From contig NZ_CP035108.1 in assembly GCF_004087915.1 (NCBI RefSeq), positions 744,001 through 808,000 on the forward strand: DNA of 64,000 bases, written 5' to 3'. The notes beneath the pieces were generated by a model. The model had not been told where the DNA came from. It made no database searches and worked only from the letters and a program-made list of their open reading frames with translations. The translations under genes and the position numbers were made by a program. This document shows positions 8,250 through 56,486 of the stretch, piece by piece; the stretch's first letter is position 1, and the number at the start of each line of letters is the position of its first letter. The stretch is from Geovibrio thiophilus (GTDB lineage: Bacteria > Chrysiogenota > Deferribacteres > Deferribacterales > Geovibrionaceae).

Positions 8250-9635
8250 ATGATAAAAAAAGTCTTCCACGCCGCGGGTTCGCTCAGGTTCGCTCTTTTC
8301 ATTTTTACGGTTATAATTTTTGTATCTTCAGTGGGTACTTTTATCCGGCAGCATGCCCCCGCAGAGGAAACCACGGCAAGGCTCAGGGAAGCTTTCGGCG
8401 ACGCCGCCCCCGTTGTTTACTCATTTCTGGATAAAACAGGTTTCACAGACCTTTACCATACATACTGGTTTAACTTCATACTGCTGCTTCTGGCGCTGAA
8501 CCTTATTTTCTGCTCCGTCCGGAAGTTTCCCGCCACATGGAGGAAGCTCACAGGAAAAATAAGCACCGAGAAAGACTCCTTCTCCGCTTACTTTGTTGAG
8601 GAAAAGGAATTCAGGGCTTCATCCGAAAACGTATCCAAGGCGTTTGCGTCGGTCTTTTCCCGCTGGGCAAGGGCTGAGGGCGGGGATGTTCTTGCCGCCG
8701 AAAAAGGCAGATACGGCAAATCCGGCGCATTTGTGACCCATTTAGGTCTCGTGATACTCATTACGGGCGGCTTCATCGGCGGCATATTCGGTTACAACGG
8801 GAATATTGCCATTCTTGAGGGAAAGCTGGAGCACATCGTCACCGCAGGGAAGGATAAGGAGATAGAGCTTCCTTTCAGCGTATATCTTGAAAACTTTGAG
8901 TCCGAGTATTACGAAAATTCACCGAAGCAGAGCTCCTTCCGCTCCAAGATACACTTCATAAAGGACAACGTGACGACAGAGGCGGTTGTCTCCGTGAACA
9001 GCCCCGTAAAGTTTGACGGCGTAACCTTTTATCAATCAAGCTATGGTGTATTTCCCAACAGGGACGTTATTTTTAAATTCACAGTGGATTCTCTCATTTC
9101 CGGCGTACGCTCGGAATATTCCATGGGGCTGGGACAGGAATTTGACATTCCCGATCTCAATCTTAAGGTTAAGCTGAACGACTTCGCCCCCGCCCTCGGA
9201 AAGGACAGTGACGGCGGTCTGGTAAACTTCAGCACTCAGCTTGTTAACCCCGCTCTGAACTTTGTCTTCACCAATCAGGAAGGTGAGTCCGCCAGCGAGT
9301 GGATACTCATGAAAGACCCCGCTTCCGGCGATTTCAACAACATGCACATAACCTTCAGCGATGTATGGGGTGCTGAGTATTCTGTTCTTTCCGCACGCAT
9401 AGATCCGGGTCTGCCCGTAATCTATCTGGGCTTTATAATCATTTCCCTTGGTGTAATTATTGCGTTCTACACATCGCACAGAAGGGTCTGGTCAGTTGTG
9501 AAGCCGAGCGGCGGCAGTGTTTCTGTCCGTTTTTTTTATCATAAGGACAAGGGCAGAGTAACGGCTCAGCGTGAGGCGGAGAAGATGTTTAAATCGCTTT
9601 CGGCGGCAATCGAAAGCGGCAGGGGGGAAAAATAA
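8250..9635 (+). CDS. resB: ResB-like cytochrome c biogenesis protein
   Basis: A 461-residue ResB/Ccs1-family membrane protein: a short N-terminal arm, first helix around residues 14-35, second at about 70-90, third at about 150-170 (FVTHLGLVILITGGFIGGIFG), a large periplasmic domain, and a last helix near residues 385-405. ResB and CcsA form the System II haem-ligation complex that delivers haem to CxxCH sites in the periplasm. The stop overlaps the ATG of ccsB (TAATG), so the pair is coupled. Their position after the octaheme reductase suggests dedicated or co-regulated maturation. Confidence 0.9.
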   Translation: MIKKVFHAAGSLRFALFIFTVIIFVSSVGTFIRQHAPAEETTARLREAFGDAAPVVYSFLDKTGFTDLYHTYWFNFILLLLALNLIFCSVRKFPATWRKLTGKISTEKDSFSAYFVEEKEFRASSENVSKAFASVFSRWARAEGGDVLAAEKGRYGKSGAFVTHLGLVILITGGFIGGIFGYNGNIAILEGKLEHIVTAGKDKEIELPFSVYLENFESEYYENSPKQSSFRSKIHFIKDNVTTEAVVSVNSPVKFDGVTFYQSSYGVFPNRDVIFKFTVDSLISGVRSEYSMGLGQEFDIPDLNLKVKLNDFAPALGKDSDGGLVNFSTQLVNPALNFVFTNQEGESASEWILMKDPASGDFNNMHITFSDVWGAEYSVLSARIDPGLPVIYLGFIIISLGVIIAFYTSHRRVWSVVKPSGGSVSVRFFYHKDKGRVTAQREAEKMFKSLSAAIESGRGEK

Positions 9636-13737: not shown

Positions 13738-14844
13738 TCAGCATTCGCCGCTGCTGTAGAATGCCGTGCGGTTCCTTCCGTTTGCCTTGGCGGTGAACAT
13801 CGCTTCTCTGGCTTTATAGAAAACATCCGCTGCGTTTTCCGTTCCTTCCGGGCAGACAATGGCAATGCCTGCGGAAACAGTCACCATCGACTCAGACTTG
13901 GGTGTCTTCCACCTGCTGTTTTCAATATTTATCCTTATTCTTTCCGCCAGCTTTCCCGCAGTTGCTTCCGTTTCGTCCGCAAGGAGGACGGAGAACTCCC
14001 CTCCTCCGGTTCTGGCGATGATGTCCGCGGGGGATACCATGCTTCTCAGCCTCTGTGCTGTTCCCTGAAGTATCATGTCTCCGGCTTCCTGTCCGTGGGC
14101 TCTGTTGATTTTATCAAAACCGTCAATATCGCAGACTATGATGAAGCTGTCATTCTCGGCGGGTTTGCCTTTCAGAAGCGAATCTGCCTGTTCCAGAAAC
14201 GTATCGAGAGTTTTCAGCCCGGTGAGGAGATCCTTTCCGCTGCCGTTGCCCGCAGCCTGCGCGAAGTGTCCGGTTCTTTCTCCGGCGCTTTCTCTGCGCA
14301 TATGGAGGAAGTAGCTCCTGCGCATGTAAGATGTGATAACATAGAAGACCGTTCCTGCAAAAATAATGAGAACCGCCGCAAGTCCGCTTCCGGCTCCGGT
14401 CAGCCATTTAAGGGTAAAAAACGGCAGCAGGGTGAGATAGATAAGGGTTTTCAGCGGAATCTCCGGAAAGATGAACGGGACAAGCAGTCCTGCGTAAATC
14501 AGCGGGTGCGTTTCGCCGACAAGGAAGCTATATAAAAGGTTGAAGACAAAGAAAACCAGAACCGATGTGCCGGAGAGAATGTTTGCTCTTGCCGGTTTTT
14601 TCGGGAGCCTGAGCACGCAGACGGCTGATAACACAGCCAGAAGCGCTCCTGCGATCCGCACTTCCGGCGGCTGAGCCGATGCGGCGTAAACGGAGTACAT
14701 CACTGCGTACAGAGTGAAGAAAAGACGCATTTTCATTATCGTGACGCCAGCCTTTTCCCTGCGGAAAAGAGCTTCCAGCCGCCTGTTTTTGAAGCCGCCC
14801 GACAGCCTTATGCGGTCTGAGACCGCTTTTTGTTCCTTTGTCAT
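13738..14844 (-). CDS. Membrane GGDEF-domain protein with degenerate GGGEF site
   Basis: A 368-residue protein with about five to six membrane segments (residues ~40-190), then a GGDEF domain of ~165 residues. Family landmarks are present (DLLTGL, CDIDGFDKIN, ISAGIAIV-like end), but the signature reads GGGEF: the metal-binding Asp/Glu is Gly. The usual GHxxGD is GQEAGD. Known diguanylate cyclases need the acidic third residue, so this one is probably inactive and may sense GTP or c-di-GMP, or act as a partner. ATG at 14844 is preferred; a TTG at 14859 adds five residues. It converges on the YgjP-like gene with 3 bases between stops. Confidence 0.85.
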   Translation of the reverse strand: MTKEQKAVSDRIRLSGGFKNRRLEALFRREKAGVTIMKMRLFFTLYAVMYSVYAASAQPPEVRIAGALLAVLSAVCVLRLPKKPARANILSGTSVLVFFVFNLLYSFLVGETHPLIYAGLLVPFIFPEIPLKTLIYLTLLPFFTLKWLTGAGSGLAAVLIIFAGTVFYVITSYMRRSYFLHMRRESAGERTGHFAQAAGNGSGKDLLTGLKTLDTFLEQADSLLKGKPAENDSFIIVCDIDGFDKINRAHGQEAGDMILQGTAQRLRSMVSPADIIARTGGGEFSVLLADETEATAGKLAERIRINIENSRWKTPKSESMVTVSAGIAIVCPEGTENAADVFYKAREAMFTAKANGRNRTAFYSSGEC

Positions 14845-17324: not shown

Positions 17325-17337
17325 GAGCTGTAATAGC

Positions 17338-17372
17338 TTCCCCCTTTGTTAAAGGGGGACTGAGGGGGATTT
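17338..17372 (+). repeat. Left imperfect inverted repeat of DUF559 element
   Basis: A palindrome CCCCCTTTGTTAAAGGGGG followed by ACTGAGGGGGATTT. The next base is the A of the DUF559 start codon. Its reverse complement aligns without gaps to 17720-17754 at the other end of the gene. The GAGGGGGA stretch also serves as the Shine-Dalgarno sequence for the gene. Confidence 0.8.
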
Positions 17373-17720
17373 ATGATCAGATATAATAAAAATCTTAAAT
17401 CTTTCTCCAGAGCACTCAGGAAGAATATGACCGATGCTGAGTTGCTGATTTGGTCAAAAATCAGAAGAAAACAAATAAAGGGACTGCAGTTTTACAGGCA
17501 GAAAGTCATCGAAAATTATATTCTTGATTTTTATTGTCCTGCCTCTAAGTTGGTTATGGAAATTGATGGCGGGCAGCATTTCAGTGAAGAAGCAATTCAG
17601 AAAGATAATGAAAGAGACAGATTGTTGCTGAGGCACGGGCTCAAAGTGCTGAGATTCAGCAACACAGAAGTTTTGATTAATATTGACGGAGTTATTCAGA
17701 CAATTTACGAACATTGCTGA
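17373..17720 (+). CDS. DUF559 endonuclease-like protein (Vsr-related fold)
   Basis: A 115-residue DUF559 protein. The core is NMTDAELLIWSKIRRKQIKGLQ, FYRQKVIENYILDFYCP, LVMEIDGGQHF and VLRFSNTEVL, matching a PD-(D/E)xK/Vsr-like nuclease: the Asp of LDFYCP, the Glu of MEIDG and the Gln of GGQH are the likely active site. No activity is proven for the family. The ATG abuts the left inverted repeat and the TGA overlaps the first base of the right one, so the gene exactly fills the space between repeats and takes its ribosome binding site from the repeat. Five tandem gene-less units follow. It may be the nuclease that mobilises or maintains them. Confidence 0.88.
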   Translation: MIRYNKNLKSFSRALRKNMTDAELLIWSKIRRKQIKGLQFYRQKVIENYILDFYCPASKLVMEIDGGQHFSEEAIQKDNERDRLLLRHGLKVLRFSNTEVLINIDGVIQTIYEHC

Positions 17721-18257
17721 AATCCTCCCCCCCCCTCCTTTGCAAAAGGAGGGGGTTTTTCTTTGACAGCAACAACTTCCCCCTTTATTAAAGGGGGATT
17801 GAGGGGGATTTTCTAACCGATGCGTTGCTGAAATCCTCCCCCGCCCTCCTTTGCAAAAGGAGGGGGTTTTTCTTTGACAGCAACAACTTCCCCCTTTGTT
17901 AAAGGGGGATTGAGGGGGATTTTCTAACCGATGCGTTGCTGAAATCCTCCCCCGCCCTCCTTTACAAAAGGAGGGAGTTCCTCTTTGACTGCAATAACCT
18001 CCCCCTTTGTTAAAGGGGGATTGAGGGGGATTTTCTAACCGATGCGTTGCTGAAATCCTCCCCCGCCCTCCTTTGCAAAAGGAGGGGGTTTTTCTTTGAC
18101 TGCAATAACCTCCCCCTTTGTTAAAGGGGGATTGAGGGGGATTTTCTAACCGATGCGTTGCTGAAATCCTCCCCCACCCTCCTTTGCAAAAGGAGGGAGT
18201 TCCTCTTTGACTGCAATAACCTCCCCCTTTGTTAAAGGGGGATTGAGGGGGATTTTT
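17714..18257 (+). repeat. Five tandem 111-bp units derived from the DUF559 element
   Basis: Copies begin at 17714, 17825, 17936, 18047 and 18158, an exact 111-bp period. Each holds a right-type end (AAATCCTCCCCC then CTCCTTTGCAAAAGGAG), a short spacer (CTTTGACAGCAA or CTTTGACTGCAA) and a left-type end (CCCCCTTTGTTAAAGGGGG then ATTGAGGGGGATTT). A 19-bp linker containing TCTAACCGATGC takes the place of the gene and ends in the TTGCTG that closes the gene itself. Copies differ at a few positions (TTTGC/TTTAC, GGGGG/GGGAG, GACAG/GACTG). The long minus-strand reading frame across them is not a gene. Confidence 0.9.
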
Positions 18258-18308
18258 ATTTCTGCTTTCAATATTATCCCCAACTTCTTCACCTGTCCGT
18301 TTCTTCAC

Positions 18309-18352
18309 ACGCTCGCGCCGTGGTGAACACGGCTTCGCTTCGCACGGCGCAG
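18309..18352 (-). repeat. Family B interspersed repeat
   Basis: Contains ACGCTCGCGCC and GGCTTCGCTTCGCACGGCGC around a short inverted centre (CGTGGTGAACACG). Related copies are at 21564-21633, 27761-27827, 32769-32834 and 32851-32935, in either orientation. Confidence 0.75.
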
Positions 18353-18381
18353 TTCCGTCCGTGTAACTGTTCAGCTCTGAG

Positions 18382-18465
18382 GCGTCATTGCGAACCCTGA
18401 AAGGGTGAAGCAATCTCTCGTTAAATTTAGAGACTGCTTCATCGCTTCGCTCCTCGCAGTGACGC
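18382..18465. repeat. Family C interspersed repeat (REP-like)
   Basis: GCGTCATTGCGA at one end and GCAGTGACGC at the other form terminal inverted repeats. The inner arms GAAGCAATCTC and GACTGCTTCATCGCTTCG also pair. It lies 30 bases from a family B copy. Confidence 0.7.
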
Positions 18466-18942
18466 AATCTCCCGCTTCCTCATTTCAGAAATATCTCAAT
18501 TAGTTCAATAAATTTTTTTTCCGGTAATCCATAGGTAAAATTCGATGATAAAACTAAAAACAATGTCTCCGTGGTGCGTAATATTAGTTTTCAGTTAAAT
18601 CCTAGTGACTTAATAAGTCTTATGTGTAAGGCGTCTGCGGAAAATTATTATCAGGCTAAAATAAACCAATGTTAATTTATTTTCTTAATAATTTTTACAT
18701 TGGCATTACCAAGAAAAGTCAGTTTCTATATTTCCAGATAAATAGAAAGGTTAAGTATACTTTAACACCTAGTCATCTTCTGGGTAATTATGCAAATATT
18801 ACGAAATTACTATACATATGGAATAATAGGATTTTACGCTGATTTAGTAATGACTAATAAGTTTTGATTAAAACTAAAATATGAAAAAAATAAGATGGTA
18901 AAGCGAATGTAAATTTTATTAGCGCAAAGAGTTAAGTTCATT

Positions 18943-21686: not shown

Positions 21687-21782
21687 AAAATCCTCCCCCG
21701 CCCTCCTTTACGGAAGGAGGGTGCTTTTACTCTTATTCGCAATAGCTTCCCCCTTTGCAAAGGGGGACCAGAGGGGGATTTG
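21687..21782 (+). repeat. Solo gene-less copy of the DUF559-associated repeat
   Basis: AAATCCTCCCCCGCCCTCC, a diverged CTTTACGGAAGG hairpin, spacer, CCCCCTTTGCAAAGGGGG and CAGAGGGGGATTT. It has the same right-end/left-end order as the 111-bp tandem units about 3.5 kb away but is a single copy without the DUF559 gene or the 19-bp linker. Confidence 0.8.
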
Positions 21783-32768: not shown

Positions 32769-32834
32769 GTCCCATGGATGGGACTGCGCCGTGCGAAGCG
32801 AAGCCGCATTCACTGCGGCGCGAGCGTGTATTCA
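32769..32834 (+). repeat. Family B interspersed repeat (copy 1 of tandem pair)
   Basis: GTCCCATGGATGGGAC hairpin, then CGCCGTGCGAAGCGAAGCCG, a CATTCACTG centre, CGGCGCGAGCGTGTA. The CGCCGTGCG core begins at 32787. Confidence 0.75.
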
Positions 32835-32850
32835 AAATTTCCATGGATGG

Positions 32851-32935
32851 CAAATTTTGAATTATAAAGGAAAGGCACTGCGCCGTGCGAAGCGAAGCCG
32901 CATTCACTGCGGCGCGAGCGTGTATTCAAAATTTC
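32851..32935 (+). repeat. Family B interspersed repeat (copy 2 of tandem pair)
   Basis: A second CGCCGTGCGAAGCG core starts at 32881, exactly 94 bases after the first. The linker AAATTTTGAATTATAAAGG precedes both this copy and the truncated third copy at 32975. TTCAAAATTTCCATGGATGG closes both full copies. Confidence 0.75.
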
Positions 32936-32978
32936 CATGGATGGCAAATTTTGAATTATAAAGGAAAGGCACTGCGCC

Positions 32979-33053
32979 GTTGTCATTCTGAACGCCAGTG
33001 AAGAATCTCTTATTGAGCATAATATTGAGACTCTTCGCTTTGCTCAGAGTGAC
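32979..33053. repeat. Family C interspersed repeat (REP-like)
   Basis: TTGTCATTCTGAA, then CAGTGAAGAATCTC, an ATAATATT centre, GAGACTCTTCGC and TCAGAGTGACGC. It directly abuts CGCCG of a truncated family B unit, as if it had inserted in or replaced it. Confidence 0.7.
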
Positions 33054-56189: not shown

Positions 56190-56486
56190 TCATCCTCTGA
56201 GTTTCTTCACTCCGAAAATCTGCATAAGGCTCAGCTCTTCCATGAGATCAATGAGCCTGTCATCGCCGACGTACATACTGATGTGGATTCTGTCCACGTT
56301 TACGAGCTTCATGAGATAGCCGATAACGGAGGAGGTCATGGACAGGGAGTCCGCTATTATGAAGCTTATGCTGTCTGCGCCTCTGTCCACCAAGGACTGA
56401 ACGGTATCCTTTATGGTCATGTAGTTTTCCAGAGTCTTTATGTTGCCCTTGATTTCGATCTGTCTGTCGTGAACGTTTATTTCCAT
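56190..56486 (-). CDS. STAS-domain anti-sigma factor antagonist-like protein
   Basis: A 98-residue STAS protein. DSLSMTSSVIGYLMKLV is the switch helix with a phosphorylatable Ser/Thr (the TSS stretch). STAS partners of PP2C phosphatases release a kinase or sigma factor by partner switching. The ATG at 56486 has GGAG 7 bases upstream, whereas the ATG at 56492 is too close to it. The gene overlaps the 3' end of the REC-PP2C-HATPase gene by 10 bases, so the two are translated as a unit and act as substrate and phosphatase/kinase. Confidence 0.85.
   Translation of the reverse strand: MEINVHDRQIEIKGNIKTLENYMTIKDTVQSLVDRGADSISFIIADSLSMTSSVIGYLMKLVNVDRIHISMYVGDDRLIDLMEELSLMQIFGVKKLRG

Follow-up and report, generated by a model that had tools for sequence, protein, structure and literature searches.

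Double-hairpin repeats of the BoxC/PIT type beside a DUF559 nuclease gene in Geovibrio thiophilus: a possible partnership of repeat and nuclease

Introduction

Already since the 1990s BoxC or PIT ("potential intrastrand triplex") repeats have been known from Escherichia coli, Haemophilus, cyanobacteria and hundreds of other genomes, and they have been linked to genome instability. These intrastrand-triplex repeats, also called TM, were described in E. coli and in more than 260 genomes, and in E. coli a close inverted BoxC pair invariably consists of one type A and one type B motif (PMC4666352). A mobile element behind BoxC/PIT was sought by Holder et al. and none was found (PMC4666352); the origin of the repeats is hitherto unexplained. 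In a stretch of 64,000 nucleotides of the Geovibrio thiophilus chromosome (NZ_CP035108.1, positions 744,001 to 808,000; here called the window) a tandem array of hairpin repeats directly adjoins a gene of the DUF559 family. This raises the question of how repeats and gene belong together: are the repeats remnants of an element that carried the gene, is the gene a guest among repeats, or are the two partners?

Layout of the array

The whole tract lies on the plus strand in the order L-gene-(R-s-L-linker)x4-R-s-L, with s for the spacer. It opens with an extra, sixth L half (17328-17372), a PIT-type hairpin and its third purine block immediately before the start codon of the DUF559 gene (17373-17720); the R foot after the gene has its first base within the stop codon. 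Five doublet units (R-spacer-L, 92 bp) follow at 17720-17811, 17831-17922, 17942-18033, 18053-18144 and, as the end of the array, 18164-18255; they are 96% alike and separated by 19-bp linkers at 17812-17830, 17923-17941, 18034-18052 and 18145-18163. Tandem Repeats Finder gave a period of 111 with 4.9 copies and 96% matches (17714-18256), and four register copies of 222 nt are spaced by 111 bp. The first-pass annotation of five units with this period, starting at 17714, 17825, 17936, 18047 and 18158, is therefore correct. Its assignment of an R-type and an L-type hairpin to each unit holds as well: the window contains six matches to the L motif and six to the R motif at 0-3 mismatches, with 0 expected from 100 shuffles.

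All four linkers within the array are identical (TCTAACCGATGCGTTGCTG) and end, as the gene does, with TTGCTG. Units 3 and 5 differ at two bases, and the substitutions they have in common are real. Unit 4 resembles units 1/2 in its left part and units 3/5 in its right part; as it is a mosaic of two unit kinds, exchange between units is likely, which supports the earlier proposal of tandem amplification and conversion. A minus-strand open reading frame of 337 amino acids running through the array (17454-18467, with NPPQSPFNKGG repeats) was dismissed as a by-product of the repeat, and an Rfam search over the array returned sub-threshold chance matches only.

The dispersed 92-bp unit

The genome of the window (G000), one contig of 2,997,552 bp, was searched with two array units. 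This yielded 46 matches, among them about fifteen near-full-length copies outside the array, and many copies are far from the DUF559 gene. An isolated doublet of the same family lies in the window itself at 21688-21781 (plus strand; 765688-765781 of the contig). When copies were aligned with 60-bp flanks, the conserved block ran from AAATCC to GGATTT over 92 bp and comprised hairpin R, spacer and hairpin L, with the gene and the 19-bp linker outside it; flanks and linker were unconserved, except among copies nested in common larger repeats. Since conservation ends at AAATCC and GGATTT, the dispersed unit consists of R, spacer and L, and the feet form its two outer ends. Nine full units were compared, five from the window and four from the sister species G002; all are exactly 92 bp long, with linkers of 19 bp. 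Judged by these alignments, the linker lies between units and outside them, so that the 111 bp stand as a period but not as the border of a unit. Folded as a single strand the unit is predicted to form a cloverleaf with paired feet, and it folds better than shuffled sequences (z about -4.5).

Some doublets of G000 occur in other settings. The doublet also forms another tandem array, at 1190098-1190558 of the contig, with a period of 184 and a different linker of roughly 90 bp. Six doublets are nested in a larger dispersed repeat, AAAAAGTATATA[unit]GATATGAACAAGCCTGTTACTG...TTTGTCATCAG, and at four of these sites compared the whole composite is absent from G001, a genome of the same genus. A clean empty site of a single unit was not found in G001 or G002; the difference there involves the entire composite or a large region, and a target duplication is therefore unreadable at these sites.

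Each half as a BoxC/PIT motif

By its sequence, each half of the doublet is a hairpin plus a mirrored third purine strand and can be classed as a PIT/BoxC motif. A simple motif finder, which looks for a hairpin with a purine arm and a third purine block as its mirror image, detected 16 motifs in the window and 0 in the shuffled window. It picked all 11 halves of the tract formed by the L half and the array as well as both halves of the unit at 21688-21781. Three further single PIT-like motifs (9594-9630, 14274-14311 and 56370-56400) stand outside the family of the array.

The likeness to BoxC/PIT/TM repeats comprises the purine 3' arm of the hairpin followed by a mirrored purine block, the dispersed, intergenic copies, and the pairing of two types as inverted doublets, here R and L. 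Unlike the known repeats, the motif of the window is an AT-containing variant (CCCCCTTT/CCCTCCTTT) instead of GAGAGGG, and it is arrayed with a period of 111 bp around a DUF559 gene.

The DUF559 protein

The adjoining gene is the sole DUF559 gene of G000 and encodes 115 amino acids, which match the PF04480 profile with 119.5 bits (cut-off 20.6; E 7.7e-35). A structure model was predicted with a pLDDT of 90. In fold comparisons this model came closest to 3hrl (Z 14.3), to the catalytic domain of the EDxHD homing endonuclease I-Bth0305I (3r3p; Z 11.1, rmsd 2.6 over 90 residues) and to Vsr (Z 9.6-9.1), and weakly to TnsA (Z 7.0). Three residues (E63, D65 and D78) are invariant and three more (D52, Q68 and H69) almost invariant. 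Going by the model, the protein thus probably shares the catalytic-domain fold of I-Bth0305I and Vsr along with the conserved E63, D65 and Q68/H69. It differs from both in being a stand-alone protein without intron or specificity domain; in addition, its gene is tied to hairpin repeats, and no linked methylase was noticed. Caulobacter VsrA, a DUF559 protein, causes DNA damage responses in vivo (PMC12907096), which is consistent with a nuclease activity of the family.

Motifs around DUF559 genes in other bacteria

The association of gene and motif was followed in 30 loci from many phyla, chosen by protein similarity, together with five relatives, ycjD of E. coli and the window. Motif density was 4.9 per kb within 300 bp of the DUF559 gene versus 0.21 per kb farther away; in non-coding DNA of the 30 loci alone it was 9.2 near the gene and 2.1 far from it. 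In a second sample, made up of 119 genomes of one class that were selected by taxonomy, all 30 DUF559 genes examined had a motif within 250 bp and 24 of them on both sides. The nearest upstream motif was in '+' orientation in 26 of 28 cases and the nearest downstream motif in '-' orientation in 25 of 26, so that the feet almost always face the gene. The gene of the window has an L motif on one side and an R motif on the other, in the tail-to-tail arrangement seen with DUF559 genes across bacteria.

The motif sequence varies between a CCCCCTTT type and a CCCTCTCCC type; the architecture is constant. Motif type follows the nuclease: mapped on the protein tree it changed 5 times compared to 20 times after shuffling, and one genome (G057) has nucleases of both types, each beside its own motif type. 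The A-type motif was present in 22 of 29 genomes with a small DUF559 gene versus 25 of 83 without one (Fisher p 2.4e-5, genomes treated as unrelated), a count that leaves out genomes found through the protein. These protein-found genomes all carry the motif (19/19; reversed-pattern control 0). Conversely, 16 of 61 genomes of the class without any DUF559 match still carry it; such genomes may hold relics, may be incompletely assembled or may be signs of independence. In the family of the window, two of the six genomes without small DUF559 have a few copies and four have none.

By eye, G-rich hairpins flank most of seven DUF559 copies on plasmids or phages, on one side or on both. At three loci in Clostridia the hairpins on either side of the DUF559 gene belong to another family (aaggcttccccttgaggggaagctgtcac...gtgactgatgagg), which suggests that the association extends beyond purine-triplex motifs.

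Position of the gene in sister genomes

In the sister species G002 the same locus contains a 111-bp array with an equal number of L motifs (six). However, the DUF559 gene occupies linker slot 1 in G000 and slot 4 in G002, where one R has been deleted, and the linkers of G002 vary while its units are kept. Third codon positions of the DUF559 gene are 93% identical between the two species versus 59-63% in the neighbouring MATE and GGDEF genes, and the gene has therefore moved. Most likely, to judge from these comparisons, it was exchanged once the two species had separated and ended up in another slot of that array. The high identity could also stem from ordinary homologous recombination; other stretches, e.g. 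the flanks of another locus (L005), are very alike between G000 and G002 too. The change of slot is the strongest single hint of a homing-like movement, but recombination through the repeats could suffice for it without an enzyme. G001 has no small DUF559 gene; units were undetectable there, and the orthologous gap contains a degenerate half at most.

A proposed nuclease partner for the repeats and its alternatives

Taken from sequence comparison, these relations suggest that the DUF559 nuclease family may move or maintain hairpin repeats. The nearest known system is that of the REP/BIME/REPIN repeats and their RAYT transposase (TnpA-REP), which resembles the locus in the inverted palindromic doublet as repeating and dispersed unit, in arrays with alternating short and long spacers and in a single-copy partner gene bracketed by repeats (PMC3116915). 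The foot is a different one, AAATCC/GGATTT without a GTAG/CGTC tetranucleotide, and the partner here is a nuclease of the PD-(D/E)XK type; a Y1 transposase (RAYT, PF01797) had no match in G000. The best reading is a system of the REP/REPIN kind in which a Vsr/homing-type nuclease takes the place of the Y1 transposase, with a mobilising role of DUF559 that we infer. Such a nuclease would recognise its cognate hairpin or foot and nick or cut there; repair or copying might then spread the L-gene-R cassette and the R-s-L doublets, and a tandem array could grow by unequal recombination and be homogenised by recombination between its units. For this explanation as a whole, in which an array of dispersed, non-autonomous double-hairpin repeats has the DUF559 gene as partner and spreads driven by the nuclease, we estimate a probability of about 0.6. 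The first-pass annotation was right in seeing a non-autonomous partner relation between repeats and gene.

It derived the units, however, from an L-gene-R element by internal deletion and amplification in the manner of MITEs. The common ending TTGCTG and the presence of L and R around both gene and linker speak for such an origin, but the greater part of the linker does not come from the gene, and the 7-8 bases shared are what shuffled linkers share too. Dispersed copies are R-s-L with feet outermost and no linker, the reverse of the L-gene-R topology, and near-full-length units occur elsewhere with unrelated flanks and no DUF559 neighbour, a finding which the annotation itself had named as contrary to its proposal. 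The array of G002, with variable linkers between kept units and the gene in another slot, fits a gene placed into an array better than units derived from a gene. Chance-level similarity and inverted topology led us to reject the deletion model, and we regard it as hardly credible. Nearly as improbable is a role as bidirectional terminators or insulators, for which the hairpins would have been selected around a foreign gene, their spread being incidental. The strength of the GC hairpins, the T runs that come after them in R, and the folding of the single strand far better than shuffles would suit this role; it is opposed by the conserved mirrored third strand and foot, by the fixed orientation to the gene, by the many copies far from DUF559 and by the lack of a regulatory pattern for the E. 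coli copies (Holder et al., PMC4666352). More weight is due to the idea, in our view still unlikely, that DUF559 is a homing-type passenger which uses PIT repeats as safe insertion sites, the repeats being spread by replication slippage or another enzyme. A homing endonuclease as the closest enzymatically named fold of the model, a gene younger than its neighbours in different linker slots of one array in two species, and genomes with repeats but without DUF559 are in its favour. Against it, repeats and gene co-occur, copies are few or missing where the family of the window lacks a small DUF559 gene, and motif type tracks the nuclease clade, which is not required of a pure passenger.

YcjD and BoxC in E. 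coli

The partnership of repeat and nuclease, if true, would parallel REP/RAYT with an unrelated enzyme. A further-reaching proposal, to which we give somewhat less than even odds, is that stand-alone DUF559 nucleases including YcjD of E. coli are dedicated BoxC/PIT mobilisers that would copy both themselves and the doublets by homing-like cutting and repair. A tie between BoxC/PIT and DUF559 would give a function to the repeats and to an uncharacterised protein family alike. In the open literature, covered by titles and term searches, no link of DUF559, YcjD or COG2852 with BoxC or intrastrand triplexes was found, and a prior description is possible; DUF559, YcjD and endonucleases are unmentioned in PMC4666352.

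E. coli K-12, which has both YcjD and BoxC, offers a testable case. The ycjD gene of E. coli has a degenerate motif at its end and a full BoxC 168 bp downstream. Presence and absence of ycjD form a natural plus/minus set for the dynamics of BoxC. Counted over 5,426 E. coli genomes, the ycjD region occurs in 3,333. Two strains that lack ycjD have a TetR/RND efflux region at that side of fabI; because this region is a different one, the locus represents a replacement and was discarded as an empty site.

Other repeats of the window

Another abundant repeat lies at about 18292-18470 (GTCATTGCGAACCCTGA... / ...CGCTCCTCGCAGTGACGC). It has dozens of copies in G001 and G002 and is thus present also in a genome without DUF559 and doublets. 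Furthermore, a 94-bp unit (ACTGCGCCGTGCGAAGCGAAGCC...) is repeated 2.1 times with 100% identity at 32783-32980.
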